Shown here piece after piece: positions 46,698 to 62,635 of a DNA stretch of 64,000 nt. This DNA comes from Streptomyces sp. NBC_00461 (GTDB lineage: Bacteria; Actinomycetota; Actinomycetes; Streptomycetales; Streptomycetaceae). The notes under the pieces were generated by a model. It did not search any database. It had not been told where the DNA came from and saw only the letters and a list, made by a program, of their open reading frames with translations. The stretch's first letter is position 1. The number at the start of each line of letters is the position of its first letter. The stretch spans positions 1,893,001-1,957,000 of the forward strand of contig NZ_CP107902.1 in assembly GCF_036013935.1 (NCBI RefSeq), written 5' to 3'. The translations under genes were made by a program, and so were the position numbers.

Positions 46698-46784
46698 CGC
46701 GATTGAGCGAGGGTGCAAGGACGTGAGGACTTGGGCCCGTCGCGGATACGCCTGCGTGACGCGCACGAAACAGGCCGCCCCTAA

Positions 46785-46804
46785 TTTCTGTCGCCCGACA
46801 GGAA
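46785..46804. promoter_or_regulatory. TTTCTGTCG palindrome upstream of the APC permease
   Basis: TTTCTGTCG-CC-CGACAGGAA, 44 bp before the permease GTG, preceded by CTAA. The same element, perfect, stands before the guanidine operon at 55865-55884. TAATTT (46782-46787) would be the -10 it covers. Confidence 0.7.
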
Positions 46805-46847
46805 TTCCGCGCCACACTCCGCTCCCGCGCCGAAGGCAGGTGCCGCC

Positions 46848-48407
46848 GTGACGACAACAGCCCCCTCCGACGTACGCCCCGATCCGCCCCACTCCCCCGA
46901 CGACCACTCCCTCGCCGAGTTCGGCTACCGCCAGGAACTGCACCGCAGCCTGGGCCGGTACGCCTCCTTCGCGGCCGGGTTCTCCTTCATCTCGGTCCTG
47001 ACGACCGTCTTCCAGTTCTTCGCCTTCGGGTACGCGTTCGGCGGCCCCGTCTTCTTCTGGGCCTGGCCGGCGGTGCTGGTCGGGCAACTGCTGGTGGCCG
47101 CGTGCTTCGCGGAACTGGCCGCCCGCTATCCGATCTCGGGCGCGATCTACCAGTGGTCCTCGCGCCTTTCGAACCCCACCTTCGGCTGGTTCGCCGGCTG
47201 GATCATGGTGATCGGGCAGATCGTGGTGGTCGCGGCGGCGGCGCTGGCGCTGCAGATGGTGCTGCCGGCCATCTGGTCCGGCTTCCAACTGGTGGGCACC
47301 GACTCCGCGCCGACGTCGGCGGACGGCGCGGCGAACGCGGCGGTCCTGGGCGTGATCCTGCTGGTGCTCACCACGCTGGTGAACATCATGGACAACCGCG
47401 TGCTGTCCGTGATCAACCGCGTCGGCGTCACCGCGGAGATCATCGGCGCCGTCCTGATCGTCGTCCTCCTGCTCACCCACTCCAAGCGCTCTCCCGGCAT
47501 CACCTTCCACACCGAAGGGGCGGCGGGGTCCGGCCTGTTGGGGGCGCTGCTCGTCGGCTCGTTCACGGCGGCGTACGTGATGATCGGCTTCGACAGCGCG
47601 GGCGAGATGAGCGAGGAGACGCGCGATCCGCGGCGGACGGCGCCCCGCACGATCCTCACCGCGCTCGGCGCCGCCGGCCTGCTCGGCGGCCTGGTCATCC
47701 TCGGCGGGCTGCTCGCGGCGCCCAGCCTGACCGACGGCCACCTGGGCGTCGACGGCCTCAGCTACGTCCTGACCAGCAGCCTGGGTGACGGGGTCGGCAG
47801 GGTGCTGCTGGCCGACGTGGTGGTGGCGATCGCGGTGGCGACCCTCGCGATCCAGACGGCGGCCAGCCGGATGCTGTTCTCCATGGCCCGCGACGGCGGG
47901 CTCCCGTTCTCCGGGCGCCTGGCGCACGTCAACCCGCGCACCGGCATGCCCAGCGCCCCCGCTCTGGTCGTCGGCGTCCTCTCGGCGGCCCTCCTGCTGC
48001 TCAACTTCGCCTCGCCGGACGCCTTCCTGGCCATCGGCACCACCTGCATCGTGATGCTGTACCTGGCCTACGCGATGGTCACCGGCCCGCTCCTGATCCG
48101 GCGCCTGCGCGGCGAGTTCGCCGCCGGCGGCACCGACGAGAAGGGCGCGAAGCTCTTCTCCCTCGGCCGCTGGGGCATCCCCGTCAACGCCCTCGGACTC
48201 CTCTACGGCCTCCTCATGACCGTCAACCTGGCCTGGCCACGGGCGGCGGTGTACGACCCGACGGGCGGGCACTGGTACTTCCAGTGGTTCACGGTGCTGT
48301 TCCTCGCCGTCACGCTGCTGGCCGGCGGTGCCTACCGGGCGTGCCGGAAGCGGACCACCGCCCGAAGTGCCGTACCGGAGACGGCCGTCACGGAGGCCGC
48401 GGCGTAG
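46848..48407 (+). CDS. APC family permease, urea/guanidine-associated type
   Basis: 519 residues, twelve predicted helices. APC superfamily features include FAAGFSFISVLTTVFQFFAFG near the first helix, GAIYQWSSRL and FDSAGEMSEETRDPRRTAPRTI. GTG 46848 follows AGGTG. Permeases of this branch usually adjoin the carboxylase/DUF1989 operon; here that operon is 7.5 kb away but shares the palindromic operator, so guanidine or a related nitrogen compound is the likely substrate. It diverges from padR and ends 1 bp from the stop of the convergent acetyltransferase. Confidence 0.85.
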   Translation: MTTTAPSDVRPDPPHSPDDHSLAEFGYRQELHRSLGRYASFAAGFSFISVLTTVFQFFAFGYAFGGPVFFWAWPAVLVGQLLVAACFAELAARYPISGAIYQWSSRLSNPTFGWFAGWIMVIGQIVVVAAAALALQMVLPAIWSGFQLVGTDSAPTSADGAANAAVLGVILLVLTTLVNIMDNRVLSVINRVGVTAEIIGAVLIVVLLLTHSKRSPGITFHTEGAAGSGLLGALLVGSFTAAYVMIGFDSAGEMSEETRDPRRTAPRTILTALGAAGLLGGLVILGGLLAAPSLTDGHLGVDGLSYVLTSSLGDGVGRVLLADVVVAIAVATLAIQTAASRMLFSMARDGGLPFSGRLAHVNPRTGMPSAPALVVGVLSAALLLLNFASPDAFLAIGTTCIVMLYLAYAMVTGPLLIRRLRGEFAAGGTDEKGAKLFSLGRWGIPVNALGLLYGLLMTVNLAWPRAAVYDPTGGHWYFQWFTVLFLAVTLLAGGAYRACRKRTTARSAVPETAVTEAAA

Positions 48408-48408
48408 G

Positions 48409-48990
48409 TCAGTCGCCTTGTAGGCGCGCGTGCAGGTGCATGTCGTGCCAGCCGTCCGGGTGGAGGAGGGCGCTGCGCTTGGTGCCCTCCAGGACGAAGC
48501 CCGCCTTGGCGGCGACCCGGCAGGAGGCCCGGTTGGCGGTGGCGTGCATCAGTTCCAGGCGGTGGAAGCCGATCCCCTCGAAGGCCCAGCGGGACAGGGC
48601 GGTCGTCGCGCGGGCGGCTGTGCCCTGGCCGCGGGCCGCCGCCGTGGTCCAGTACGCGACCTCGGCCACGCCGTCGCCGAGCGCGATCTCGCGCAGCGCC
48701 ACCCGCCCCAGCAACCGGTCGCCGTCCGCGTCGGTGACGGCCCACTGCGCGGTCCGCTCGCCCTCCCACGCCTTCCGCCACTCCTCGATCCAGCCGGCGG
48801 CCTCCGCCTCGGAGTCGCTGCGCCGGATGTGCCACTGGTGCATGAGCGGGTCCTGGAAAGCCTCGTGGACGGCGGGCGCGTCCTCGGCCCGCCAGGGGCG
48901 CAGCAGCAGTCCGTCGCCGGTGGGGAGCAGGGGCTGCGGGATACGGGAGAGGGTTCCGGCGGGCAGGACGGGGCTGGTGACGTAGGGCAT
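48409..48990 (-). CDS. GNAT family acetyltransferase (RimJ/RimL type)
   Basis: 193 residues from ATG 48990 (MPYVTSPVL); ATG 48999 is possible. LLLRPWRAEDAPAV at the N-terminus, the acetyl-CoA loop ARGQGTAARATTALSRWAFEGIGFHRLELMHATANRASCRVAAKAGFVLEG, and a C-terminal Asp/Met-rich strand are typical of the branch that acetylates ribosomal protein N-termini or small amines. Substrate unknown. Confidence 0.87.
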   Translation of the reverse strand: MPYVTSPVLPAGTLSRIPQPLLPTGDGLLLRPWRAEDAPAVHEAFQDPLMHQWHIRRSDSEAEAAGWIEEWRKAWEGERTAQWAVTDADGDRLLGRVALREIALGDGVAEVAYWTTAAARGQGTAARATTALSRWAFEGIGFHRLELMHATANRASCRVAAKAGFVLEGTKRSALLHPDGWHDMHLHARLQGD

Positions 48991-49058
48991 GACCGGCATC
49001 CTGCCCGTGGGCGGTGGCCGGTCCAACGGCTTTTCCGGGCGCCGTAGGCTTGATCGTG

Positions 49059-50009
49059 ATGAGTCGCAAGCCACGGATCCCGCCCGCCCCGCTGCCCCAA
49101 CGGCAGGGGGTCGACCCCGTGCGGGTGCGGCTGCCCGTCGAGGGGCCGTGGGCCACCGTTCGCGAGCACCTCGTCGAGCGGCTCAGCGGGGCGGGCGCCG
49201 GAGTCGTCGACGGGATGCTCGACGCGGGGAAGATCGTCGGCGCCGACGGGCGGGCCGTCGCGCCGGACGCCGCCTACGAACCCGGCATGTTCGTGTGGTT
49301 CCACCGCGAGCTGCCCGCCGAGACGCCGGTGCCGTTCCCGCTGGAGGTGGTGTACCGCGACGAGCACATCGTCGTCGTCGACAAGCCGCACTTCCTGGCC
49401 ACCACCCCGCGCGGCAGCCATGTCACCGAGACCGCGCTCGCGCGTCTGCGGCGGGAGCTGGGCCTGCCCGCGCTGGGCGCCGCGCACCGGCTGGACCGGC
49501 TCACGGCCGGGCTCGTGCTGTTCACGGTGCGGCCCGAGGAGCGCGGCGCGTACCAGTCGCTGTTCCGCGACCGGCGGGTGAGCAAGGAGTACGAGGCGAT
49601 CGCCCCGTACGATCCCGGGCTCGTCCTGCCCCGGACCGTGCGCAGCCGCATCGTGAAGGAGCGTGGTGTGCTCGCCGCGTACGAGGTGGCGGGCGAGCCG
49701 AACGCCGTCAGCGGCATCGAGATGGTCGGGCACCGCGGCGACGGCCTGGGGCGGTATCGGCTGCTGCCCAGCACCGGGCAGACCCACCAGCTCCGCGTCC
49801 ACATGAACGCGCTCGGCACGCCTGTTCTCGGCGATCCGCTCTACCCGGTGGTGGCCGACCCCGTGCCGGCCGGCGACTTCCGGCGTCCGCTCCAACTGCT
49901 GGCGCGGGCACTGGAGTTCACCGATCCGGTCACGGGGGTGGAGCACCGCTTCCTGAGCACGCGAGCGCTCCTGGCCTGGTCCTCCTACGGCGACTGGGCC
50001 GGTCAGTAA
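49059..50009 (+). CDS. RluA family pseudouridine synthase
   Basis: 316 residues from ATG 49059 (GTG 49056 also possible). Converts uridine to pseudouridine in rRNA or tRNA. The catalytic Asp is in AAHRLDRLTAGLVLFT; GRYRLLPSTGQTHQLRVHM and GDPLYP are family marks. An S4-like N-terminal segment (VREHLVERLSGAGAGVV) is present. TAGGCT (49045-49050) ends 5 nt before GTG and no Shine-Dalgarno is seen, so the message is probably leaderless. It overlaps the convergent P450 gene by 7 bp. Confidence 0.9.
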   Translation: MSRKPRIPPAPLPQRQGVDPVRVRLPVEGPWATVREHLVERLSGAGAGVVDGMLDAGKIVGADGRAVAPDAAYEPGMFVWFHRELPAETPVPFPLEVVYRDEHIVVVDKPHFLATTPRGSHVTETALARLRRELGLPALGAAHRLDRLTAGLVLFTVRPEERGAYQSLFRDRRVSKEYEAIAPYDPGLVLPRTVRSRIVKERGVLAAYEVAGEPNAVSGIEMVGHRGDGLGRYRLLPSTGQTHQLRVHMNALGTPVLGDPLYPVVADPVPAGDFRRPLQLLARALEFTDPVTGVEHRFLSTRALLAWSSYGDWAGQ

Positions 50010-51487
50010 CCGCGCCACCAGAGCAGGAAGCGGCGCCAGGCGCCCTTGGGGCGGGCCGGTTCCACGGGCGCCGGAGCCGGCTGCTGGGACGGTGCGGCCG
50101 GCTGGGGCGCCGCGGCGGCAGCGGCGGGCGGCTCGGGCTGCGCGGAGCCGACCTGCCAGTTGCCGCGCTGCGGCGGGACGGGGGCGTGGCCCGGCTTGGC
50201 CTTCACGTCCTGCTCCGGCTTCGGCTCGAAGCGGACCGGAAGCTCCACCAGATGCCGTGAGGAGATCGACTGCCGCCAATCCAACTCGTCCTCGTCGCAG
50301 TCGAGTTGGACATCGGGCAGCCGCATGAGCAGCGCGTCGACACCGGTGTCGGCGATGGCACGGCCGATGTCCTGACCGGGGCACTCGTGCGGACCGCCGC
50401 CGAAGGCGAGGTGCGAGCGGTTGCCCTGCATGTTCGCGGCGAGGTCGGGACGGATCCGCGGGTCGACGTTGCCCGGCGCGATCCCGAGCAGCAGCCCGTC
50501 GCCCCTGCGGACGTGCTGGCCGCCCAACTCCGTGTCCTGCTTGGCGAAGTAGGCGAAGACCGAGCTGAAGGGCGGTTCGTCCCACAGGGACTGCTCGACC
50601 GCTTCCGGCACCGTCATCTGGCCGCCGTTGAGCTGGGCCCTGAAGCGCGGGTCGGTGAGGATCATGCGCAGTACGTTGGACAGGAGGTTGACCGTGGCCT
50701 CGTAGGCGGCGAAGAGCACGAGGCGCAGATGCTCGCGGACCTCGTCGTCGGTCAGCCTCGCCGGGTGGGCGATGAGGTGGCTGGTGAAGTCCTCCTCGGG
50801 CCGGGCGCGCCGCTTGGCGGTGAGCCGGCTCAGCGCGTCCATCACGTAGGTGTGGCTGGCGATCGCGGTCTCGGTGCCCTTGAGCGCGTCACGGGCCGCC
50901 TGCACGAGCCGGTCGTTGTACTCGTCGGGCATGCCGAGGATCTCGCACATCACGCCCATCGGCAGGTGCTCGGCGAACTGTCCGACCAGGTCGGCCGACC
51001 CCTCCTTGCAGAAGCGGTTGACGAGGCGCTGGGTGTGGCGGTTGATGTGACGGCGGACGCCGCGGTGGTCGATGGTCGACATGGCGCCGGTGACCGCGGC
51101 CCGCAGGCGCAGGTGTTCGTCGCCCTCGGCGTGGGAGCAGATCGGCTGCCAGGCGATGTGCGGCATCAGCGGGTGGTCGGGCTTGACCGTGCCCTCGCCC
51201 AGCGGGTTCCAGATGCGGCTGTCCCGGCAGAACTGCGAGGGCGAGCGCACCATGTGCAGGTTCTCGGTGTGGCCGAGCACGACCCACATGGGCACGTCGT
51301 CGTGGAGCAGCACGGGCGCCACCGGGCCGTGCTCCTCGCGGAGTTGCTCGTACAGGGAGGCCAGGTCCTCCGCCTCGGGACCGTAGAGCCGGTGCAGCCC
51401 GCCGGGGCCACGGCCGTGGGCCGGGCAGCCGGGCGGCGGGACGAGCGTGGGGTCCATGCCGGTCAGGGATTGGTGTTCAGGCGTCAC
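50003..51487 (-). CDS. cvnE9: CYP157-type cytochrome P450 of a conservon, lacking ExxR
   Basis: 494 residues from GTG 51487 (GGAG upstream). Haem-binding FGGGPHECPGQ with Cys369 is intact; the I helix reads FAAYEATVNLL. At the K helix the universal ExxR is replaced by EQSLW (298-302), the motif reported for CYP157C1 of S. coelicolor cvn9. A C-terminal extension of about 65 residues, Pro/Ala-rich, ends in RPKGAWRRFLLWWRGY, a basic aromatic tail that could touch the membrane. It is the last cvn gene. Catalysis is uncertain; a structural or signalling role in the conservon complex is possible. Confidence 0.9.
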   Translation of the reverse strand: MTPEHQSLTGMDPTLVPPPGCPAHGRGPGGLHRLYGPEAEDLASLYEQLREEHGPVAPVLLHDDVPMWVVLGHTENLHMVRSPSQFCRDSRIWNPLGEGTVKPDHPLMPHIAWQPICSHAEGDEHLRLRAAVTGAMSTIDHRGVRRHINRHTQRLVNRFCKEGSADLVGQFAEHLPMGVMCEILGMPDEYNDRLVQAARDALKGTETAIASHTYVMDALSRLTAKRRARPEEDFTSHLIAHPARLTDDEVREHLRLVLFAAYEATVNLLSNVLRMILTDPRFRAQLNGGQMTVPEAVEQSLWDEPPFSSVFAYFAKQDTELGGQHVRRGDGLLLGIAPGNVDPRIRPDLAANMQGNRSHLAFGGGPHECPGQDIGRAIADTGVDALLMRLPDVQLDCDEDELDWRQSISSRHLVELPVRFEPKPEQDVKAKPGHAPVPPQRGNWQVGSAQPEPPAAAAAAPQPAAPSQQPAPAPVEPARPKGAWRRFLLWWRGY

Positions 51488-51777
51488 GGTGGTCGCTCCG
51501 AAGTGGATCCGGTGTCTGGGGAGTTGGACGAATGCGGGTGCCGGGTGCGGGTGCCAGTGCCCCGGCGGGCGACGTTTACCCGTAAAGGAGTGGCGTCCGG
51601 CGCATGCTCTGGGGGTCCCCCCGGCCGGAGGCTGGGGGCGCAGGCGCCCTCGTACTGGAGTACTTGGGTCTGTGCCCGGTGCGGCGAGTGGGGGCACCTC
51701 CCACGCCCTCAAGGCGGTCGGGGAGCGTGCCGGGCGTCGCGACGGGGCGAACGTTGCCTGTCGGGGCACTAGGGGCC
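51488..51777. other. 290-bp gap inside the conservon with repeat-like hairpins
   Basis: Separates cvnD from the P450. GGGGGTCCCCCC (about 51611-51622), a GTACTGGAGTAC palindrome (51652-51663) and GTGGGGGCACCTCCCAC (51690-51706) form hairpins of the kind seen in dispersed Streptomyces repeats. No gene. It may lower P450 expression relative to the first four genes or hold a separate promoter. Confidence 0.4.
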
Positions 51778-52398
51778 TCAGGTGAGCGCGCCGGTCAGGG
51801 CGAGCGAGTGCAGGAAGCGCATCAGGGTCATCAGGACGTCCCGGCTGGAGGCCCGGCGGCGTGCGTCGCACTCGATGATCGGGATCTCGTCCGCCAGATC
51901 GAGCGCGCTGCGGAGGTCGTCGATGGGGTAACGCGGCCCGTCCGGGAAGGAGTTGACGGCGACCACGAAGGGCACGCCGCGCTCCTCCAGCCGCCCTATG
52001 ACGTCGAAGCTGACTTCGAGCCGACGGGTGTCGATCAGGACCACGGCCCCGAGCGCGCCCTCGAACAGCCCGTTCCACAGGAACCAGAAGCGTTCCTGGC
52101 CGGGCGTGCCGAAGAGATAGAGCACCAGCTGTTCGGTGATGCTGATGCGGCCGAAGTCCATGGCCACGGTGGTGGCCGTCTTGGTGTCGGAGCCGTAGTT
52201 GTCGTCGACGCCGACGCCGGCCTGCGTCATGGTCTCCTCGGTGGTCAGCGGCCTGATCTCGCTGACCGAGCCGACCATCGTCGTCTTGCCGACTCCGAAG
52301 CCGCCCACGATCACGATCTTCACCGCGGCCTGCGCCGAGTGCGGCAGATGATCTTCCGAACGTGGTCCGGGGATGGTGTCAGAGCCTTTGAAGTCCAT
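51778..52398 (-). CDS. cvnD9: Conservon GTP-binding protein CvnD
   Basis: 206 residues. Ras-like P-loop protein: G1 GGFGVGKTT, G3-like FGTPGQERF, and VVAVNSFPDG where NKxD would be, the usual conservon variant. In S. coelicolor CvnD9 binds GTP and, with CvnA, B and C, forms a membrane-associated complex compared to eukaryotic G-protein signalling. The start overlaps the cvnC stop by 20 nt. An N-terminal extension of about 25 residues precedes the domain. Confidence 0.92.
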   Translation of the reverse strand: MDFKGSDTIPGPRSEDHLPHSAQAAVKIVIVGGFGVGKTTMVGSVSEIRPLTTEETMTQAGVGVDDNYGSDTKTATTVAMDFGRISITEQLVLYLFGTPGQERFWFLWNGLFEGALGAVVLIDTRRLEVSFDVIGRLEERGVPFVVAVNSFPDGPRYPIDDLRSALDLADEIPIIECDARRRASSRDVLMTLMRFLHSLALTGALT

Positions 52399-52774
52399 GC
52401 ATCACCGCTTCGAGGAGGGAACGGTCGGGGAGCGCCTGACGGACGATCGGGGCGCGCGCCTGTACCAGTTCTGCCGTCAGCATCTCGGTGAGCAGCACGG
52501 TCACCACGCTGAACGGCAGGCTCAGATAGGCCGAGAGTTCGGCCACCGAGAGGGGTGCCGTGCAGAGCCGGAGCATCGCCGTCTGCTCCGGAGTGGCCGA
52601 GGGCGGAGGGTCGGCGCGCGCCACGATTAACGTGACGAGGTCGATGTCGGCGCGCTCCCCGTCGGGCCCGGCGACGACATAGAGCCGCTCCGGGGCCTTG
52701 CCCTCTTTGGCCGGCAGTGGGGGTGGTGGTGTTTCTTCCTTGGGATGTCGCCGCCGGCGTTGCGGAGGAGTCAT
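52379..52774 (-). CDS. cvnC9: Conservon DUF742 protein CvnC
   Basis: 131 residues. DUF742 winged-helix fold (RLYVVAGPDGERADIDLVTLIVAR, EQTAMLRLCTAPLSVAELSAYLSLPFSVVTVLLTEML) after a Pro/Lys-rich N-terminus. ATG 52774 overlaps the cvnB stop as ATGA. Acts as a component of the Cvn complex between the roadblock protein and the GTPase; no DNA binding has been shown for this family to my knowledge. Confidence 0.92.
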   Translation of the reverse strand: MTPPQRRRRHPKEETPPPPLPAKEGKAPERLYVVAGPDGERADIDLVTLIVARADPPPSATPEQTAMLRLCTAPLSVAELSAYLSLPFSVVTVLLTEMLTAELVQARAPIVRQALPDRSLLEAVMHGLQRL

Positions 52775-53178
52775 ACGGTCTGCCCGTTGCGCCGGGGCGG
52801 GCTGGTGAGATGGGCCCCGATGCGCACGACGAGGTCGCGCATGCGGTTGCTCATCAGTCCGGGTTCGGCGACCACGTCGGAGAGCACCGCGAGGTAGGCG
52901 TTGGCTCCCGCGGCCATCAGATAGAAGTAGCCGCCGTTGATCTCGATGATGACCAGCTTCATCCGGCCGTCGCTGCCCGGGATCTCGTGGGCGACGGCGC
53001 CCGCGAGGCTCTGCAGTCCCGCGCAGGCCGCGGCGACACGGTCGGCGGCGTCCGGATCGCCCCCGTAGCGAGCGATGCGCAGGCCGTCGGCGGAGAGCAC
53101 CACGATCATCTCGATGCCCGGTACTCCGTCGGCGAGATCCTTGAGCATCCAGTCGAAGTTGGCTCGCTGCTGGATCAC
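52771..53178 (-). CDS. cvnB9: Conservon roadblock/LC7 protein CvnB
   Basis: 135 residues, one roadblock/LC7 domain (NFDWMLKDLADGVPGIEMIVVLSADGLRIA, VAHEIPG, GGYFYLMAAG). In bacteria these proteins are partners of small GTPases, like MglB. The GTG start (53178) overlaps the cvnA stop as GTGA. It forms part of the Cvn9 complex. Confidence 0.93.
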   Translation of the reverse strand: MIQQRANFDWMLKDLADGVPGIEMIVVLSADGLRIARYGGDPDAADRVAAACAGLQSLAGAVAHEIPGSDGRMKLVIIEINGGYFYLMAAGANAYLAVLSDVVAEPGLMSNRMRDLVVRIGAHLTSPPRRNGQTV

Positions 53179-54767
53179 TTGTGGTCCCTCTCGTCGTCGG
53201 CCTCGATACGGGCCGGCTCGGTGGTCGGCTGGCTGAGTGCGGTCGGGTCCATGTCGCCCTTGAGTCCCTCCCAGAACGCCTCGACCCAGAGCCCCGGTTC
53301 GGGCTCCTTCGTCTCGGGCTCCGGGTCGCGCACCGGCGTCGCCCAGGCGGGCCGGGTCTCACGGGCCTCCCGCTCGGCCCGTTCGGCGGCGGCCTGTTCG
53401 GCGAGCCGCTGGCTGAGCGGGATCTTGACGCGGCTGCGCCGCTGCGGCAGCCCGCCGGCGGTCCACTCGGTGACCTCGGGGACCTCGTCCTCCATGGACA
53501 CGCCGGCCGGGATGCGCGGGCTGGTGGGACGACGCCGCTTCGGGGCGCGCTTGGGACCTTCGATGTCGCCGAGGTCGAGCTTGGGCGCCGCGGTGGCGCC
53601 GACGCCGTGGGCGAGGCCGGGCGCAGGGTCGTTCGTCATCATCACGCGCGGCACGACCAGGACGGCGCGGACACCGCCGTACGCCGAGGAGCGCAGCGAG
53701 ATCTGCATGTCGTACGTCTTGCACAGGCGGCCGACGACGGCGAGGCCAAGGCGCGGGGACTCGCCGAGGTCCTGGAGGTCGACACCGGCCTTGGCGCGCT
53801 CCAGCATGTTCTCGGTCTTGGCGCGGGCCTCCTCGCTGAGGCTGACGCCGGCGTCCTCGATCTCGATGGCGATGCCGGTCTGCACCTCGGTCGCGGTGAC
53901 ATGGACCTTGGTCTGCGGGGGCGAGTAGCGCGTGGCGTTGTCGAGGAGTTCGGCGCAGGCGTGGATGATCGGCTCGACGGAGGTGCCACCGATGTTGACC
54001 TTGGCGATCGAGTCCAGTGAGATGCGCCGGTATTCGAGGATGCGGGACATGGCGCCGCGCAGCACGCTGTACAGCGGGACGGGCGCCGGCCACTGACGGC
54101 CCGGACGTCCGCCGCCGAGCACGGAGATCGAGTCGGCCAGGCGGCCGATCAGCGCGGTGCCGTGGTCGATGCGCAGCAGGTCGTCGAAGACCTCGGGGTT
54201 ACGGCCGTGGTCCTCCTCCATCTCGCGGAGTTCGTTGGCCTGTTGGTGCACGATCGCCTGGACTCGGCGGGCGATGCTGACGAAGGAGCGCTGCGAGGAG
54301 TCCCGCATGGCGTCCTCGGTGTCGACGATGTCGAGCATCCGCTTGAGCAACGCCACCTGGGCTTCGGACAGTTCGCCGTAGGAGGGGTCGATGTTGCCGA
54401 GTTGGCGAATCACCTCCGTGGGGGAGTTGCCGCCGCGCAGGTAGTAGATGGCGGTCGGCGTGATCTCGTGCCCCAGGCGGTGCAACTCCTGCTCGTGTCC
54501 GGCGAGGCGCCGTTCCAGATACGCACTGTGACGGGCGCTCGTCTCGCGCAGGATCCGCAGGGCGCGGCCTCGTCGTACCGCTTCGGCCGCCGTGACGATC
54601 ACCAGGAGCGTGGCGACGGCGCCGCACCAGACGACGGCCGCCCGGGCCGGCACGGCCACCATGGCGACCGCTGCTCCGGTGGCCCCGGCCATCAGTATGG
54701 CGGGCAGCAACAGCACGCGCGCGTAAGGAAGTTCACGGCGCTGGGGAGGGGATTGAACACTCACCAT
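53175..54767 (-). CDS. cvnA9: Conservon sensor kinase-like membrane protein CvnA
   Basis: 530 residues from ATG 54767, with GAGGG 5 nt upstream; a GTG 34 codons earlier is less likely. Two membrane helices (about 15-36 and 42-60), a helical segment, and a HATPase domain (about 250-395) with N box ELLDNATRYSPP, DAGVSLSEE and GLAVVGRL. No clear phospho-acceptor His box, as usual for CvnA. The C-terminal 150 residues are Pro/Glu-rich and probably disordered. S. coelicolor cvnA9 (rarA) influences aerial mycelium formation. First gene of the operon. Confidence 0.93.
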   Translation of the reverse strand: MVSVQSPPQRRELPYARVLLLPAILMAGATGAAVAMVAVPARAAVVWCGAVATLLVIVTAAEAVRRGRALRILRETSARHSAYLERRLAGHEQELHRLGHEITPTAIYYLRGGNSPTEVIRQLGNIDPSYGELSEAQVALLKRMLDIVDTEDAMRDSSQRSFVSIARRVQAIVHQQANELREMEEDHGRNPEVFDDLLRIDHGTALIGRLADSISVLGGGRPGRQWPAPVPLYSVLRGAMSRILEYRRISLDSIAKVNIGGTSVEPIIHACAELLDNATRYSPPQTKVHVTATEVQTGIAIEIEDAGVSLSEEARAKTENMLERAKAGVDLQDLGESPRLGLAVVGRLCKTYDMQISLRSSAYGGVRAVLVVPRVMMTNDPAPGLAHGVGATAAPKLDLGDIEGPKRAPKRRRPTSPRIPAGVSMEDEVPEVTEWTAGGLPQRRSRVKIPLSQRLAEQAAAERAEREARETRPAWATPVRDPEPETKEPEPGLWVEAFWEGLKGDMDPTALSQPTTEPARIEADDERDHK

Positions 54768-55095
54768 GTAGGCCCTCTGAAAGAGATCGGCTGGGTGTCT
54801 GGGGAGCTTGCAAGTGGGGTACGTATAGGACTGCACTGAATCTTCGGTATTTTTTGGGAACAAGCGCACGAATAAGCCTCAACTCGGTGCGCTGCGGGCG
54901 AGCTTAGTCCGACCGGATCATCGCCGTGTCATATTCAGCAAGCACCTGAAACGGGGCGGGTCCAAGGAGTACCCTCGGCTCCATTTACACGCCTCGGATT
55001 CATTCGAACACGGCGCGTCACGACGTACGGGCATACGAAAACACTCACCGTGACGAGTGAAGAGGCGGGCGGGGACCGGCTTCAGCCCCGGTCGG
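54768..55095. other. 328-bp region upstream of the conservon
   Basis: Carries the cvnA leader and the end of the TetR transcript. GACCGG (55074-55079) and CCGGTC (55088-55093) form a hairpin just beyond the TetR stop. CACTC/GAGTG (55042-55059) forms another. The stretch 54835-54990 is unusually AT-rich for this window, with a TTTTTTG run at 54850. TAAGCT (54906-54901, minus) may be a -10 for cvnA. No gene is seen. Confidence 0.45.
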
Positions 55096-55731
55096 TCAGA
55101 CGCCCGCGATCCGCAGGGCCGCGTCCGCCGTGGCCTCCGCGAAGACCGACACCGGGCGCTCGGGGTCGGAGCGGTGCACCAGGATCACACCCTCGATCAA
55201 GCCGAACAACAGGTCCGTACGGAGATCGAGCCCACTCTTGGCGAGCGCACCCCCGGCAGTCGTGGCGGCGAGCAACTGCCGGTAGGCGTCCTTGAGTTCG
55301 GCGCGCACGGCATGGAAGCCGGCGAACCGCTCGGCGCGCACCTCGGGCAGCAGATACAGCCCGCCGAGATTGTGCGGGCCGCCGCACAGCAGCTCCACGT
55401 CGGTCCGGCACAGGTCCCACAGCCGGTCCTCGGGCGGGGTCGCGTCGTCGGCGAGGAGCTGCCTGGCGTACGTCAGCGAGGGCGTGACCGTGGACTCCAG
55501 GAGCTCGGCGAGCAGCTCCTCCTTGCCGGAGACGTAGTGGTACATCGAGGCCTGCCGCATGCCCGCGCGCTCGGCGACCGCACGGGTGGTGGTGGCCGCG
55601 TAGCCATGGGTGGTGAACAACTCGGCAGCTGCCGCGAGCAGTTCCTCGCGCGGCTGCAGACCGCTGTCCGGCCGCTGCGCGGCCCGCGGCCTGCCGACCC
55701 GGCGGCCGACTCCTCCACCCGGCGTTCCCAT
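55096..55731 (-). CDS. TetR family regulator, probable regulator of the guanidine/urea operon
   Basis: 211 residues from ATG 55731 (MGTPGGGVGRR); the frame extends upstream but lacks a plausible start. The TetR helix-turn-helix is clear (REELLAAAAELFTTHGYAATTTRAVAERAGMRQASMYHYVSGKEELLAELL), followed by a helical ligand domain. It is divergent from the carboxylase operon and has the TTTCTGTCG palindrome in the shared intergenic space, so it is the likely repressor for that site and for the same site before the APC permease. Confidence 0.88.
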   Translation of the reverse strand: MGTPGGGVGRRVGRPRAAQRPDSGLQPREELLAAAAELFTTHGYAATTTRAVAERAGMRQASMYHYVSGKEELLAELLESTVTPSLTYARQLLADDATPPEDRLWDLCRTDVELLCGGPHNLGGLYLLPEVRAERFAGFHAVRAELKDAYRQLLAATTAGGALAKSGLDLRTDLLFGLIEGVILVHRSDPERPVSVFAEATADAALRIAGV

Positions 55732-55864
55732 GCGCTCGATCCTCGCACACGGCCGGCCGGGCGACCGCCAGGCGACCGCCGGGCGACCACGACGCGACCT
55801 CCGTGAGGGCTCGGTAACCGAGCGGCAACACACGGGCAATGCCCGCGACCCGCCCGCCTCCTAA

Positions 55865-55884
55865 TTTCTGTCGGGCGACAGAAA
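55865..55884. promoter_or_regulatory. Perfect TTTCTGTCG palindrome before the guanidine operon
   Basis: TTTCTGTCG-GG-CGACAGAAA, preceded by CTAA; 65 bp upstream of the first operon gene and 134 bp from the tetR start. TAATTT (55862-55867) may be the -10. An almost identical element lies at 46785-46804. Confidence 0.75.
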
Positions 55885-55948: not shown

Positions 55949-56773
55949 ATGGCGACAGCGACCACATACGGAGCCCGCGACCACGCCCGCGCCCAGGAGG
56001 GCGCACGCGCCGAGGCCATGCCCGTCGTGCCGTCCGCCGACTGGCCCGACCCGCCCTGCGAGGCGGGCCACCTGGTCTGGGCCGAGACGGTGGCGGGCGG
56101 CAACTACACCCACCGGGTGCTGGCCCGCGGTACGGAGCTGCGCCTGACCGACCTGCGCGGCGACGCCTGCGCCCACCTCGTGCTGCTCGTGGCCGACCGG
56201 CCCTGGGAGCGGCTGAACGTCGCCGACACGGTGAAGGTCCAGTGGAACGCCTACCTCGGTGAGGGCCGGCTGCTGCTGTCCGACCAGGGCCGGGTCCTGG
56301 CGTCGGTCGTAGCCGACACCTCCGGGCGGCACGACGCGCTGTGCGGCACCTCCAGCCTCGTACGCAACACCGAGCGGTACGGCGACGGCACCCCCCAGTC
56401 CGCCTCCCCTGCGGGCCGCGAGCTGCTGAAGCTGGCTGCCGCGAAGAACGGCCTGCAGCCGCGCGACCTGCCGCCGTCGCTGTCCTTCTTCCAGGGCGTC
56501 GAGGTGCGCGAGGACGGCACCCTGGACTTCACCGGCTCCGTCGGCCCCGGCGGCACCGTCACGCTCCGCGCCGAGCAGGACCTCACCGTCCTGATCGTCA
56601 ACGTGCCGCACCCGGCCGACCCGCGCCCCGACTACGTCAGCACCCCGCTGGAGGTCCTCGCCTGGCGCGCCGCGCCGACCGCACCGGGCGACGCGCTGTG
56701 GGAGGCCACGCCCGAGGGCCGCCGCGCCTTCCTGAACACCGCCGAATTCCTTGCCGCGAGGGGGCTCTCATGA
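55949..56773 (+). CDS. cgdA: DUF1989 protein, urea-amidolyase-associated 1 (carboxyguanidine deiminase subunit)
   Basis: 274 residues, cytosolic. DUF1989 domain (LTDLRGDACAHLVLLVADRPWERLNVADTVKVQWNAYL, CGTSSLVRNTERYGDG). Historically called urea carboxylase-associated protein 1; work on other bacteria showed that the two DUF1989 proteins form a deiminase that converts carboxyguanidine to allophanate. Position as first of four coupled genes matches that pathway. GGAGG stands upstream of ATG 55949. Which subunit is A or B is assigned by order only. Confidence 0.85.
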   Translation: MATATTYGARDHARAQEGARAEAMPVVPSADWPDPPCEAGHLVWAETVAGGNYTHRVLARGTELRLTDLRGDACAHLVLLVADRPWERLNVADTVKVQWNAYLGEGRLLLSDQGRVLASVVADTSGRHDALCGTSSLVRNTERYGDGTPQSASPAGRELLKLAAAKNGLQPRDLPPSLSFFQGVEVREDGTLDFTGSVGPGGTVTLRAEQDLTVLIVNVPHPADPRPDYVSTPLEVLAWRAAPTAPGDALWEATPEGRRAFLNTAEFLAARGLS

Positions 56774-57408
56774 GCACGCCGACGACCGTGTCCTCGACCG
56801 TCATTCCGGCACGCGCCGCCTGGTCGTCCGTCATCCGCACGGGCGAGACGCTGACCATCACCGACCTGCACGGCAACCAGGCCGTCGACTTCCTCGTGTA
56901 CGACGCCCACGACACATCGGTCCGCTACAGCGCCCCCGACACCATCCACGCGCAGGGCACCATCTTCCTGACCACGGGCAGCGTGCTGATGTCCAACGAG
57001 CACACCCCGCTGATGACCGTGGCCGCCGACGAGGTGGGCCGCCACGACACGGTCGGCGGGGCCTGCTCCAAGGAGTCGAACACCCTCCGGTACGGGCACC
57101 ACACCTGGTCCCAGCACGCGTGCGTGGACAACTTCCTCGCCGAGGGCGCGCGGCACGGCCTCGGCAAGCGCGACCTCGTCTCCAACATCAACTGGTACAT
57201 GAACGTGCCCGTCGAGAAGGACGGCACCCTCGGGATCGTCGACGGCCTCTCGGCACCGGGCCGGAAGGTCGCCCTGCGCGCCGAGCGCGACGTTCTCGTG
57301 CTGGTCTCCAACTGCCCCCAGATCAACAACCCCTGCAACGGCTTCGAACCGACGGCCGTGGAGATGACGATCACCGCTGCGGACGCCGTCGAAGGGGAAG
57401 GCGCATGA
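56770..57408 (+). CDS. cgdB: DUF1989 protein, urea-amidolyase-associated 2 (carboxyguanidine deiminase subunit)
   Basis: 212 residues. The second DUF1989 protein, related to the first (ITDLHGNQAVDFLVYDAHD, GGACSKESNTLRYGHHTWSQHACVDNF). His, Asp and Cys residues here are candidates for the metal site of the deiminase. ATG 56770 overlaps the upstream stop as ATGA, and its own stop overlaps the carboxylase ATG in the same way, so the proteins are made in fixed ratio. Works with the preceding gene product on carboxyguanidine. Confidence 0.85.
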   Translation: MSTPTTVSSTVIPARAAWSSVIRTGETLTITDLHGNQAVDFLVYDAHDTSVRYSAPDTIHAQGTIFLTTGSVLMSNEHTPLMTVAADEVGRHDTVGGACSKESNTLRYGHHTWSQHACVDNFLAEGARHGLGKRDLVSNINWYMNVPVEKDGTLGIVDGLSAPGRKVALRAERDVLVLVSNCPQINNPCNGFEPTAVEMTITAADAVEGEGA

Positions 57409-60400
57409 CCTTCGACACGCTGCTCGTCGCCAACCGGGGCGAGATCGCGGTCCGGATCATCCGCACGGCCCGCGAACTGGGCCTGCGCACGGTCGCCGTG
57501 TACGCCGACCCGGACCGCTCAGCTCCCCATGTCCGGCTCGCCGACGAGGCGGTGCGGCTCGGCCCGGCGCCCGCGAAGGAGTCGTATCTCGACGCCGACC
57601 TGGTGCTGAAGGCCGCCAAGGACGCCGGTGCGGGCGCGATCCACCCCGGTTACGGCTTCCTGTCGGAGGACGCGGCGTTCGCGCGTCGCTGCGAGGACGC
57701 CGGAATCGTGTTCGTCGGCCCGACGCCGCAGCAGCTGGAGCTGTTCGGGGCCAAGCACACGGCGCGGGCGGCGGCCGAGGCGGCGGGGGTGTCGCTGGCG
57801 CCGGGCACCGGGCTGCTGGGGTCGCCGGCCGAGGCCCTCGCGCAGGCCGCGGTGATCGGCTACCCGGTCATGCTCAAGGCGACCGGGGGTGGCGGCGGTA
57901 TCGGCATGTCGGCATGTCGCTCCGCCGGTGAACTGACCGACGCGTGGGAGCGGGTGCAGCGCGTGGCCGCCGCCTCCTTCTCCTCGGCAGGGGTCTTCCT
58001 GGAGCGGCTCGTCGAGGACGCCCGCCATGTGGAGGTGCAGGTCTTCGGCGACGGGGCGGGCAGGGTCGTCACCTTCGGCGACCGCGACTGCTCCCTCCAG
58101 CGCCGCAACCAGAAGGTCGTGGAAGAGGCCCCGGCGCCGGGCCTGCCGGCCCACGTCCGGGAACAACTCGCCGTGTCCGCACGCGACTTGTGTGCGTCCG
58201 TCGGCTACCGCTCCGCCGGCACCGTCGAGTTCGTCTACGACGCCGCCCGCGAGGAGGCGTACTTCCTGGAGGTCAACACCCGTCTCCAGGTGGAGCATCC
58301 GGTCACCGAGGAGATCTACGGTGTCGACCTCGTCGCCTGGATGCTGCGCCTGGCCCGCGGCGAGACCGGCGTCGTACGCGATCCCGGCGAACCCCGAGGC
58401 CACGCCGTCGAGGCCCGCCTCTACGCCGAGGACCCCTCGCGCGAACACCGGCCCAGCGCGGGCCTGTTGACGCGGGTCGAGTTCCCGCCGGGCGTCCGGG
58501 TCGACGCCTGGGTGGAGACCGGCACCGAGGTGACGACGTCGTACGATCCCCTGCTCGCCAAGGTCATCGCGTACGGCCCCGACCGCGCCCGCGCGCTCCG
58601 CCGGCTCGACGACGCGCTGGCCCGCACCCGCGTCGACGGCATCGAGACCAACCTCGGCCTGGTGCGCGCGGCACTCGCCGACCAGGACTTCGCCGGCGCC
58701 TCGCACTCCACGGCGACGCTGGCCCGCGTGAGCGACCCGACGCCCCGTATCGAGGTCGTCGCCGGCGGCACCCTCACCACCGTGCAGGACTGGCCGGGCC
58801 GCACCGGCCACTGGCAGGTCGGCGTGCCCCCGTGCGGCCCGATGGACGACCTGTCCTTCCGGCTCGGCAACCGCGCGCTCGGCAACGGCGAGGGCGCCCC
58901 CGGCCTCGAATGCACCCTCCAGGGACCGGCGTTGAGGTTCACGCACCCCACCACCGTGTGCGTGACGGGCGCTCCGGCCGAGGTCACCCTCGACGGCACG
59001 CCCGTCGCGCAGTGGGAGCCGGTGACGGTGCCCGCGGGCGCCGTACTGGAGATCGGCGCGCCGACCCGGCACGGTCTGCGCACCTATGTGCTCTTCGCGG
59101 GCGGTCTCGACGTGCCGGCCTTCCTGGGCAGCGCGAGCACCTTCACGCTGGGCCGGTTCGGCGGACACGGCGGCCGGGCGCTGCGCACGGGCGACGTACT
59201 GCACGGCGGTACGGCAACCGAAGGCGTCCCCGTGCCCGAGGAGAACCGCCCCGCCTTCACCGCCGTATGGCAGGTGGGCGCCGTCGAAGGCCCGCACGCC
59301 GCACCGGAGTTCTTCACCGAGGACGACATCCGCGACTTCTACGCCGCCGACTGGAAGGTCCACTTCAACTCGGCCCGCACCGGCGTACGGCTGGTCGGAC
59401 CCAAGCCGCGCTGGGCGCGCACCGACGGTGGCGAGGCGGGTCTGCACCCGTCCAACATCCACGACACCCCGTACTCCGTCGGCGCCGTCGACTACACGGG
59501 CGACATGCCGGTGCTGCTCGGCCCGGACGGTCCCTCGCTGGGCGGGTTCGTCTGCCCGGCGACGGTGCTGAGCGGCGAGCGGTGGAAGCTGGGCCAGCTG
59601 CGCCCGGGCGACACGGTGCGCTTCGCGCCGGTGGCCGTCGACGGTTCGCCTCGCGCGGACATCGTGGACGGCGGTGTGCTGGCCCGGGACGGCGACATCA
59701 CCTACCGCCGCAGCGGCGACGACAACCTGCTCGTCGAATTCGGGCCCATGCAGCTCGACCTGGCCCTGCGCATGCGCGTGCACGCCCTCATGGAAGCGGT
59801 CGCCGAACAGGGGCCCGCCGGCATCACGGACCTCACACCCGGCATCCGCTCCCTGCAGATCCGGACGGACCCCGGCCGCCTGGCGCAACACGAACTCCTC
59901 GCCGCGGTACGGGAGATCACGGCCGCGCTCCCGCCCACCGACGCACTCGTGGTGCCCTCCCGCACCGTCCATCTCCCCCTCTCCTGGGACGACCCGGCGA
60001 CCCGCGAGGCGATCGCCCGCTATATGGCCGGCGTCCGCGACGACGCGCCCTGGTGTCCGTGGAACATCGAGTTCATCCGCCGGGTCAACGGCCTGGAGTC
60101 GGTGAACGACGTGTACGACACGGTCTTCGACGCCGAATACCTCGTGCTGGGCCTGGGCGACGTGTACCTGGGCGCCCCGGTGGCCACCCCGCTCGATCCC
60201 CGCCACCGCCTGGTGACCACGAAGTACAACCCGGCACGCACCTGGACGGCCGAGAACTCGGTCGGCATCGGCGGGGCGTACCTGTGCGTCTACGGCATGG
60301 AGGGCCCGGGCGGCTACCAGTTCGTGGGCCGTACGACGCAGGTGTGGTCGGGGTGGCAGCAGCGCGGCGCGTTCGAGCCGGGCTCGCCCTGGCTGCTCCG

Positions 60401-60917
60401 GTTCTTCGACCGCATCAAGTGGTATCCGGTCGATGCGGACGAACTCCTGGAGCTGCGGGCCGACATCACCTCCGGCCGCTTCGTGCCGCGGATCGAGGAG
60501 GGCACGTTCTCGCTGGCCGAGTACCAGGGCTTCCTCGCCGAAAACGCCGTGTCCATCGGGGAGTTCAGGGCCCGGCAGCAGGCGGCGTTCTCAGCGGAGC
60601 GGGACGCCTGGGAGGCCGCGGGCGAGTTCGCGCGGGCCGAGGCGGCGACCGCGCCGCCGGCTCCCCCGGCCGAGGTGACGATCCCGCCGGGCGGCCGTCT
60701 GGTCGAGGCCGAATTCGCCGCCTCCGTATGGCAGTTGAACGTCGAGCCCGGCGACCTGGTCTCGGCCGGGCAGCCCCTCCTCGCCCTGGAGGCGATGAAG
60801 ATGGAGTCCAGGGTGCACGCGCCGATGGACGGCGTGGTGGCGGAGATCCTGACCAGGGCGGGCGACCAGGTGGAGGCCGGGACGGCGCTGATCGTCCTGG
60901 CCCCGGCGGCGCACTGA
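57405..60917 (+). CDS. Biotin-dependent guanidine/urea carboxylase
   Basis: 1170 residues. A biotin carboxylase (1 to about 450: [44 protein letters not shown]), a carboxyltransferase domain (about 470-1000; [28 protein letters not shown]) and a biotin carrier with EAMKME (biotin Lys1132). It carboxylates urea or guanidine with bicarbonate and ATP. In GAVDYTGD, Asp696 appears to be the position where urea carboxylases carry Asn and guanidine carboxylases Asp; I judge this from memory, so it needs alignment. Adjacent DUF1989 genes favour guanidine. Unlike fungal urea amidolyase, the hydrolase is separate. Confidence 0.9.
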   Translation: [1170 protein letters not shown]

Positions 60918-60937: not shown

Positions 60938-62635
60938 ATGTCCGTTGTAACCCGTGTCCGCGCCGCCTACGCCCGTATCGAGGCCGTGGACCGCCCCGAG
61001 ATCTGGATCGACCTGCGCCCGCGGGCCGAGGTCGAGGCGGAGGCCCGGGAGATCGAGGCACGCGTGGCGGCGGGTGAGCGACTCCCGCTCGCCGGGCGCC
61101 TGTTCGCGGCGAAGGGCAACATCGACGTGGCCGGCCTGCCCACCACCGCGGGCTGCCCGGCGTACGCCTACCGGCCCGAGACCGACGCACCGGTGGTCGC
61201 CCGCCTCCGCGCCGCGGGTGCGATCGTGCTGGGCACCACGAACCTGGACCAGTTCGCGACGGGCCTGGTGGGCACGCGCTCGCCGCACGGCGCGGTGCGC
61301 AACGCCCACGACCCCGCGCGGATCAGCGGCGGCTCCAGCTCCGGTTCGGCGGTCGCCGTGGCGCTCGGCATCGTAGACCTCGCCCTGGGCACGGACACCG
61401 CGGGCTCGGGCCGGGTCCCGGCCGCCTTCAACGGCATCGTCGGCCTCAAGCCGACCCGCGGCCTGGTCCCGACGGCGGGAGTGGTCCCGGCCTGCGCCTC
61501 CCTCGACTGCGTGACGGTGTTCGCCCGCACCCTCCCGGAGGCCGAACAGGCACTGTCCTTCATGACGTCCCCGCCGGACCGCGCCCTGCCACCCCTCCCC
61601 CAGCGCACCCCGGGCCCCTGGCGCGTCGCCGTCCCGGCACCCGGCCGGCTCGGCGAACTCGACGAGCACTGGGCCGAGGCTTACGAGGCGGCGGTGCGGC
61701 AGCTCGAAGCGGCCGGCGCCGACATCCGCCCTCTGGACCTCGCCCCCTTCACCGAGGCAGCCGCGATGCTCTACGAGGGCGCGTTCGTCGCCGAGCGCTA
61801 CACGGCGGTGGGGAGTTTTGTCGACAAGGCGATGGCCGACGGGGTGGCGGGCCTGGACCCGACGGTCGCCGGCATCATCGCCCGCGCCCGCGACATCCCG
61901 GCCCACCGGCTCTACGCCGACACCGAGCGCCTGGCCGCCCTCCGCAGCCGCGCCCTGGCCGAGCTGTCCGACGCGGACGCGCTGCTGCTGCCCACCACTC
62001 CCGGCCATCCGACCCTCGCCGAGGTGGCCGCCGACCCTCTGGGCGCCAACGCCCGCCTGGGCCGCTTCACCAACTCCACCAACCTCTTCGACCTGGCGGC
62101 GGTCGCCGTCCCGGCCGGCGAGGTGAACGGCCTCCCGTTCGGCGTGATGCTGATCGGCCCGGCGTTCACGGACGACCGGCTCGCCCGGATCGCGGGCCTG
62201 CTCCAGCCGGAGACCCGGCTGGCGGTGATGGGCGCCCACCTGACCGGCCAGCCCCTCAACGCCCAGCTCCTCGCCCTGGGAGCGCGCCTGGACCGGACGA
62301 CCACGACGGCGCCGGTTTACCGCCTGCACGCCCTGCGCACAGCCCCTCCCAAGCCGGGGCTGGTCCACGTCGGCGAGGGAGGCGCGGAGATCGAGGCGGA
62401 GGTGTGGCGCCTTCCGGCGGAGGGCCTGGGCCGTCTCCTGGCCACCCTCCCCCGCCCGATGACGCTGGGGAGCGTCGAACTCGCGGACGGCAGCCACGTC
62501 CCCGGCTTCCTGTGCGAGCCATCAGCCCTCGCGGACGCCGAGGACATCACGTCGTACGGCGGCTGGCGTTCGTACCGTGATCGCCGGGACGAGCAGCTCC
62601 CCGGCGATCCGAGCCGTCACCCCACCGACGAGTAG
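60938..62635 (+). CDS. atzF: Allophanate hydrolase
   Basis: 565 residues. Hydrolyses allophanate to two ammonium and CO2, the last step of the carboxylase pathway. An amidase-signature domain (1 to about 440) holds the Ser-cisSer-Lys triad: Lys59 in AAKGN, GGSSSGSA (132-139) and nucleophile Ser157 in DTAGSGR. The C-terminal domain (about 450-565; HVPGFLCEP, DITSYGGWR) decarboxylates the product in homologues. GAGGAG precedes ATG 60938. It overlaps the convergent helicase gene by 19 bp. Confidence 0.92.
   Translation: MSVVTRVRAAYARIEAVDRPEIWIDLRPRAEVEAEAREIEARVAAGERLPLAGRLFAAKGNIDVAGLPTTAGCPAYAYRPETDAPVVARLRAAGAIVLGTTNLDQFATGLVGTRSPHGAVRNAHDPARISGGSSSGSAVAVALGIVDLALGTDTAGSGRVPAAFNGIVGLKPTRGLVPTAGVVPACASLDCVTVFARTLPEAEQALSFMTSPPDRALPPLPQRTPGPWRVAVPAPGRLGELDEHWAEAYEAAVRQLEAAGADIRPLDLAPFTEAAAMLYEGAFVAERYTAVGSFVDKAMADGVAGLDPTVAGIIARARDIPAHRLYADTERLAALRSRALAELSDADALLLPTTPGHPTLAEVAADPLGANARLGRFTNSTNLFDLAAVAVPAGEVNGLPFGVMLIGPAFTDDRLARIAGLLQPETRLAVMGAHLTGQPLNAQLLALGARLDRTTTTAPVYRLHALRTAPPKPGLVHVGEGGAEIEAEVWRLPAEGLGRLLATLPRPMTLGSVELADGSHVPGFLCEPSALADAEDITSYGGWRSYRDRRDEQLPGDPSRHPTDE

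Follow-up and report, generated by a model that had tools for sequence, protein, structure and literature searches.

A predicted AmtR regulon of Streptomyces sp. NBC_00461, most likely for guanidine assimilation

The 64,000-nucleotide stretch of the Streptomyces sp. NBC_00461 genome analysed here (contig NZ_CP107902.1; "the window") carries one palindrome in front of two separate loci: a gene for an APC permease, and an operon for the proteins UAAP1 and UAAP2, a biotin-dependent carboxylase and an allophanate hydrolase. With good confidence, these elements are read from sequence comparison as a Streptomyces AmtR regulon that most likely serves guanidine assimilation and that would also be activated by GlnR. 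Neither the regulator nor the operator type was unknown beforehand, because AmtRsav of Streptomyces avermitilis and AmtR of Mycobacterium smegmatis had already been described. Papers are cited by PMC number.

In the proposed mechanism, AmtR would bind the palindrome between amtR and the cgdA-cgdB-carboxylase-allophanate hydrolase operon as well as the copy before the permease gene, covering a TAATTT promoter element and thereby repressing both loci; GlnR, bound to half-sites phased at 11 bp, would activate both loci under nitrogen scarcity. The permease would import guanidine, the biotin enzyme would convert it to carboxyguanidine, CgdAB would deiminate this to allophanate, and the hydrolase would yield ammonia and CO2. 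What we infer is the binding of AmtR and GlnR in this species, the substrate that the pathway uses in the cell and the signal that releases AmtR, our best guess for the latter being a pathway metabolite.

Operators, regulator and promoters

The motif shared by the two loci is TTTCTGTCG-N2-CGACAGRAA, and it has no third place in the 10.37-Mb single-contig genome at up to three mismatches. The permease copy lies 43 bp 5' of the permease GTG at 46848, and the operon copy 64 bp 5' of the cgdA ATG at 55949 (Table 1). CTAA precedes both palindromes, so that a TAATTT hexamer overlaps each; the preliminary description of this DNA had reported the two copies, one with a mismatch and one perfect, and the overlapping hexamer, and the sequence bears it out. 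At the same tolerance CTAATTTCTGTCGNNCGACAG occurs at two places only in the window, each read on both strands (four rows), with zero matches in 100 shuffles. The whole-genome search that had been proposed, in which many unrelated loci would have spoken against a regulon, again returned the two operator places only (pattern TTTCTGTCGNNCGACAGAAA, up to three mismatches; zero places for a reversed control pattern), and an independent-base estimate from window composition predicts 0.0007 sites in a whole genome when one mismatch is allowed. The shorter core CTGTCGNNCGACAG has six genomic places, namely the two operators and four others that have more than three mismatches to the 18 fixed bases and lack the arms; as further targets these four were rejected. 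All four fall within stop-free frames of at least 100 codons, a measure that is uninformative on coding because both operators also lie in such frames.

The gene divergent from the operon encodes a TetR-family protein whose best phmmer match in the PDB is 5e57 ("Transcription regulator AmtR", E 7.4e-37), with 5mqq and 6gy3 ("AmtR protein") also found. The top six PDB entries reach 107.9-130.5 bits, followed after a gap by one at 44.8; three of the six carry the AmtR name, and 5dxz, 5dy0 and 5dy1 are entered just as TetR-family regulators. We take these last three to be Corynebacterium glutamicum AmtR and 5e57 to be M. smegmatis AmtR. Two distant loci encode homologues, 37 and 39 percent identical to the window's protein, for which 5e57 is again the best match. 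Judged by this similarity to characterised AmtR proteins, which covers the DNA-binding and the C-terminal domain, the TetR gene is an AmtR orthologue, and the earlier prediction that its product is the regulator is very likely right. Close relatives align over 211 amino acids, and a longer frame reaching up to a TTG at 55839 probably does not mark the amtR start.

Conservation was followed in the best 80 of 441 loci that encode a cgdA relative (78 in records named Streptomyces and 2 in records named "Actinobacteria bacterium"). The operator lies 32-167 bp before cgdA in all 80, exactly in 70 and with one mismatch in 10; divergent amtR adjoins cgdA in 78, and for the remaining two the examined sequence does not extend upstream, so that the count is 78 of 78 testable loci. 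A permease gene was found in 61 loci, 2.4 to 11.2 kb upstream and in 48 of them at 8-10 kb, which makes the split layout the rule in these relatives. The box precedes the permease in 45 of these 61; among the 16 others, 15 have a permease start at most 50 bp from, or past, the edge of the sequence, and in locus L023 the box lies 20 bp inside the estimated start. As in the regulon of the AmtRsav type, the operator thus stands both before the permease and before the UAAP/carboxylase operon. CAGGAA closes the permease copy in 44 of 45 promoters, and CAGAAA closes the operon copy in 78 of 79 (window included), so the asymmetry of the window's two copies is common to the relatives. Mean identity per column in the 20 bp downstream of the box is just 0.48-0.51. 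Four permease promoters (L025, L026, L047 and L064) have tandem double AmtR boxes 19-20 bp apart.

Directly 5' of both operators, half-sites resembling those of the GlnR box (consensus gTnAc-n6-GaAAc; PMC10704036) follow one another at 11-bp steps. At the permease promoter, GTGAC and GAAAC make up a perfect GTNAC-n6-GAAAC box (9/9 consensus bases); the -51 position, occupied in the window by GGCCC, is not GlnR-like, and it is conserved among relatives. At the operon promoter, GTAAC-n6-GCAAC matches 8/9 consensus bases and a third half-site stands at -29. This arrangement recurs in the relatives: of the 49 permease operator places, 45 have a GTNAC-n6-GAAAC match beginning at -29, and the remaining four belong to tandem operators, as their second copies; the best match of operon promoters starts at -51 in 75 of 79, mostly as GTAAC-n6-GCAAC. 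The boxes stand far above the shuffled background: when the bases of the 90-base stretch are shuffled, the share that scores at least 8/9 is 0.4 and 0.7 percent. In column alignments, from which two operon and two permease sites with short upstream DNA were left out, mean identity is 0.925 at the half-sites versus 0.671 in the spacers of operon promoters, and 0.92 at the four half-site positions versus 0.72 in the spacers of permease promoters. Both promoters also keep a GTGAG at -62, which continues the phase of the GlnR-like half-sites. The sites suggest GlnR activation combined with AmtR repression at both promoters; "GlnR on, AmtR off", the logic shown genetically in M. smegmatis, is by analogy the likely one.

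Table 1. Predicted features of the regulon in the window
Feature	Position	Strand	Basis and remarks
GlnR-box-like half-sites 5' of permease	46723..46771	+	GTGAG 46723-46727, GATAC 46745-46749, GTGAC 46756-46760, GAAAC 46767-46771
TAATTT hexamer, possible -10 element overlapping permease operator	46782..46787	+	Sequence; kept in consensus; presumed promoter role
Predicted AmtR operator of permease gene	46785..46804	+	TTTCTGTCGCCCGACAGGAA, one arm mismatch; sequence search
APC permease, probable guanidine (or urea) importer	46848..48407	+	NCBIfam TIGR03428 "permease, urea carboxylase system", 646.3 bits
amtR, TetR-family repressor, 211 aa from ATG 55731	55096..55731	-	phmmer; PF00440
GlnR-box-like half-sites 5' of operon	55803..55851	+	GTGAG 55803-55807, GTAAC 55814-55818, GCAAC 55825-55829, GCAAT 55836-55840, GACCC 55847-55851
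TAATTT hexamer, possible -10 element overlapping operon operator	55862..55867	+	Sequence; kept in consensus; presumed promoter role
Predicted AmtR operator between divergent amtR and cgdA	55865..55884	+	TTTCTGTCGGGCGACAGAAA, perfect 9-bp arms, 2-bp centre
UAAP1, taken as carboxyguanidine deiminase subunit A (cgdA)	55949..56773	+	TIGR03425, 314.6 bits, cut-off 205.95
UAAP2, taken as carboxyguanidine deiminase subunit B (cgdB)	56770..57408	+	TIGR03424, 333 bits, cut-off 284.7
Biotin-dependent carboxylase, guanidine-carboxylase signature	57405..60917	+	TIGR02712, 1822.1 bits, cut-off 1303.85
Presumed atzF-like allophanate hydrolase, 565-aa frame	60938..62635	+	Name from operon position in guanidine and AmtR papers

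TIGR03425 and TIGR03424 are here taken as CgdA and CgdB; this equation, the A/B order and the DUF1989 label are our own assignment. Between the two halves of the regulon, on the minus strand (50003-54869), lies a conservon-like cluster with genes for a P450, an ATP_bind_1/Ras-like NTPase and a DUF742 protein; a 135-aa frame and a histidine-kinase-like frame in the same interval are known as open reading frames only. The conservon label that had been given to this interval, which would also take in histidine-kinase-like and roadblock-like frames, was checked for these three members.

Guanidine or urea as the substrate

The substrate assignment turns on the carboxylase. In an alignment with positions counted by hand, its Asp (aspartate) residues 696 and 919 are the equivalents of positions 1330 and 1584 of the Kluyveromyces lactis enzyme. 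Asp at 1584 is described as required, and Asp at 1330 as the residue that separates guanidine from urea carboxylases (PMC11410670), the rule at 1330 being Asp for guanidine and asparagine for urea (PMC12186494). Asp is present at the 1330 position in 77 of the 80 Streptomyces loci, the alignment not covering the other three, and so in 77 of 77 covered loci. Since both signature Asp residues are present, the regulon more likely serves guanidine than urea, and the published name "urea" is, by this signature, probably wrong for it. The idea of the preliminary description, one split regulon for the catabolism of a nitrogen compound, is supported, with the Asp signature narrowing its "guanidine/urea" towards guanidine.

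That the same AmtR/GlnR regulon might have urea, or both compounds, as its physiological substrate is unlikely. It is what the family names (urea carboxylase, urea amidolyase) and the M. smegmatis papers say, in which the counterpart regulon is named urea metabolism (PMC4222082, PMC5137332, PMC4617892). The Asp at 1330 speaks against it, as do the two paralogous UAAP subunits, both over their family cut-offs, beside the carboxylase: the carboxyguanidine deiminase of the guanidine pathway is described as consisting of two subunits (PMC11410670). The binding of M. smegmatis AmtR was unaffected by urea or amino acids at 0.5-5 mM (PMC4222082).

Several considerations nevertheless weigh against a guanidine regulon under AmtR, beginning with the published urea name itself. 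The null effect of urea on AmtR fits a non-urea pathway, and it fits equally well the absence of any small-molecule effector. For C. glutamicum, release of AmtR has been ascribed, as a proposal, to GlnK, a PII protein (PMC8864220). The permease scores below its family cut-off of 740.45 bits. The Asp rule was published to classify the enzymes of other organisms, and it is incomplete: four CgdB-linked carboxylases, of which three neighbour a guanidine-I riboswitch, have methionine (Met) at 1330. The relatives, finally, share ancestry, so that the counts among them show constraint and not independent events.

Full-text matches for literature joining AmtR with guanidine were on insects only, in a search that most subscription papers lay outside. 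No paper tying AmtR or GlnR control to guanidine use was found among the titles and abstract beginnings; by word count, PMC11162112, PMC12452182 and PMC3293853 contain both GlnR and guanidine.

Repressor operators and riboswitches across the class

An Rfam scan of window positions 42000-64000 (E up to 1) found no guanidine riboswitch, its sole match being a weak snoRNA (E 0.59), and no guanidine-I riboswitch was found in the whole genome; the guanidine-II and -IV classes, so far as Rfam contains them, were searched for in the window alone. A riboswitch at the operon or the permease gene was thus rejected as a candidate, none having been found in the locus scan. The absence of a guanidine riboswitch that had been noted for this locus therefore holds; the further suggestion that the lineage uses a protein repressor instead is right for the locus and too simple for the genome, in view of a guanidine-III candidate elsewhere and of the GlnR-box-like sites at both promoters. 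The candidate, the sole one in the genome (C1:3820765-3820867; 33.3 bits versus a gathering score of 36), stands directly before an SMR-family exporter-like frame; both fall in L158 1117-1603. The 5' part of this frame is apparently interrupted by a palindromic stretch, which was rejected as a repeat family: the genome has a single exact copy of it, and three at 3 mismatches.

In the class-wide sample of 394 genomes, 42 have CgdB over the cut-off (41 loci, with the window as the 42nd). The permease adjoins the operon, or is separated from it by amtR alone, at 19 of the 42 loci, in keeping with the adjacency that had been claimed for many relatives. AmtR is encoded within the examined DNA at 33 loci, and an AmtR-like core of at least 9/10 precedes cgdA, the permease gene or amtR at 34, with 10/10 at 25 and 9/10 at nine. 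For the 9/10 cores, shuffles done gene by gene give fractions of 0 to 0.03, so that some of the nine may be chance. At L127 and L133 the core reaches 8 only, and at L147 and L155 no gene start passed the filters of the upstream box test; all four still count among the 42.

A guanidine-I riboswitch adjoins the operon or its permease gene at three of the 42 loci (G015, G022 and G085), in a search whose stricter filters lose weak matches; these three have no AmtR in the examined DNA and no operator in the tested promoters. No locus among the 42 was found to have both AmtR and a neighbouring guanidine-I riboswitch. For zero overlap of 34 and 3 among 42, P = 0.005, a value that ignores shared ancestry and is descriptive only. 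At the guanidine-I loci L155, L156 and L157, a search for CTGTCGNNCGACAG allowing one mismatch found nothing over the 19 kb of L155 and nothing at L157; L156 gave a single match, itself mismatched, within the permease frame. The carboxylases of these three loci and of L147, a short contig, carry Met at 1330, neither Asp nor Asn (asparagine), and share 48-50 percent identity with the enzyme of the window; regulation therefore seems to go with the lineage of the operon. Such Met-type carboxylases would be overlooked by the published Asp filter. L146 and L151, also counted among the 42, have cgdA, cgdB and the allophanate hydrolase gene, with no carboxylase, AmtR or box of at least 9 within 19.5 kb. 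Among 25 short relative loci, Rfam gave one guanidine-I riboswitch, at L100; these loci have 1.5-kb flanks only, too short to take in the riboswitches of G022 and G085. No guanidine-III riboswitch lies together with a cgd locus among the matches listed, compared by eye.

The class-wide loci also bear on whether another regulator binds the box and AmtR is a mere neighbour. Loci L124, L125 and L129 keep the box and show no amtR in the examined DNA; amtR may lie elsewhere in those genomes, as it does in M. smegmatis. The box, moreover, fits the published 22-bp AmtR consensus TAtCTGTCa-n2-cGACAGATAT (PMC8864220, quoting Chen et al. 2013, Microbiology 159:2571), and M. smegmatis AmtR binds the region upstream of the permease gene msmeg_2184 (PMC4222082). 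With amtR at so many class-wide loci and at every testable Streptomyces locus, such a regulator is very improbable. Although short palindromes are, as general knowledge has it, common in GC-rich genomes, a chance or mobile repeat without function can practically be dismissed, the expected number being far below one and both sequence and place being conserved over 80 loci, in contrast to the poorly conserved DNA just downstream.

A wider proposal, made tentatively and with somewhat more doubt than belief, is that the AmtR regulons of GlnR-bearing actinobacteria, described in the literature under urea metabolism, in fact serve guanidine assimilation. This would make AmtR the protein equivalent of the guanidine riboswitches that act at catabolic operons: guanidine, carboxyguanidine or allophanate would release it, GlnR would gate it, a riboswitch would be excluded at the same locus, and exporters would stay under guanidine-III control. 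If the pattern of an AmtR operator or a guanidine-I riboswitch, not both, at the 42 loci is true, two unrelated sensors would serve one pathway. The metabolites of the guanidine pathway are a readily testable class of possible AmtR ligands.

Comparison with known systems

Ten chosen actinobacteria, S. avermitilis included, have been published as carrying amtR along with this permease and operon (PMC4222082). The AmtRsav regulon is alike in several points: sav6701 (amtR) is transcribed opposite to the sav6698-6697 operon, the permease gene sav6709 lies elsewhere (PMC4222082), and the palindrome is of the CTGTC-N4-GACAG type, as here. Since AmtR, the permease/operon pairing and the operator consensus are all in print, the regulon of the window is a further copy of a known one.

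The M. smegmatis regulon is alike in its AmtR-repressed genes for a permease, a carboxylase and an amidase, set in a cluster with two unknown frames, and in its need for GlnR, without which the nitrogen control of the AmtR-repressed genes is lost (PMC4222082). It differs in that amtR is unlinked there and the regulon is called urea metabolism (PMC4222082, PMC5137332, PMC4617892). AmtR of C. glutamicum is likewise a TetR-family nitrogen repressor, with the related box CTAT-N6-ATAG; it regulates more than 30 genes (PMC8864220), in contrast to the two sites found here. According to PMC8864220, no small-molecule effector of AmtR has been identified.

The riboswitch-run guanidine carboxylase pathway shares with the window the two-subunit carboxyguanidine deiminase, a carboxylase with Asp1330 and Asp1584, the allophanate hydrolase and, in some ammonia oxidizers, an APC permease (PMC12186494, PMC11410670, PMC12508155); it differs in its control, the operon described here having a predicted repressor operator and GlnR-like boxes. 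As a regulon, then, the present one repeats what S. avermitilis and M. smegmatis already show. What is new is the conserved GlnR-like array, the apparent non-overlap with guanidine-I riboswitches and the re-reading, from the Asp signature together with the pair of deiminase subunits, of a published "urea" regulon as a probable guanidine regulon.

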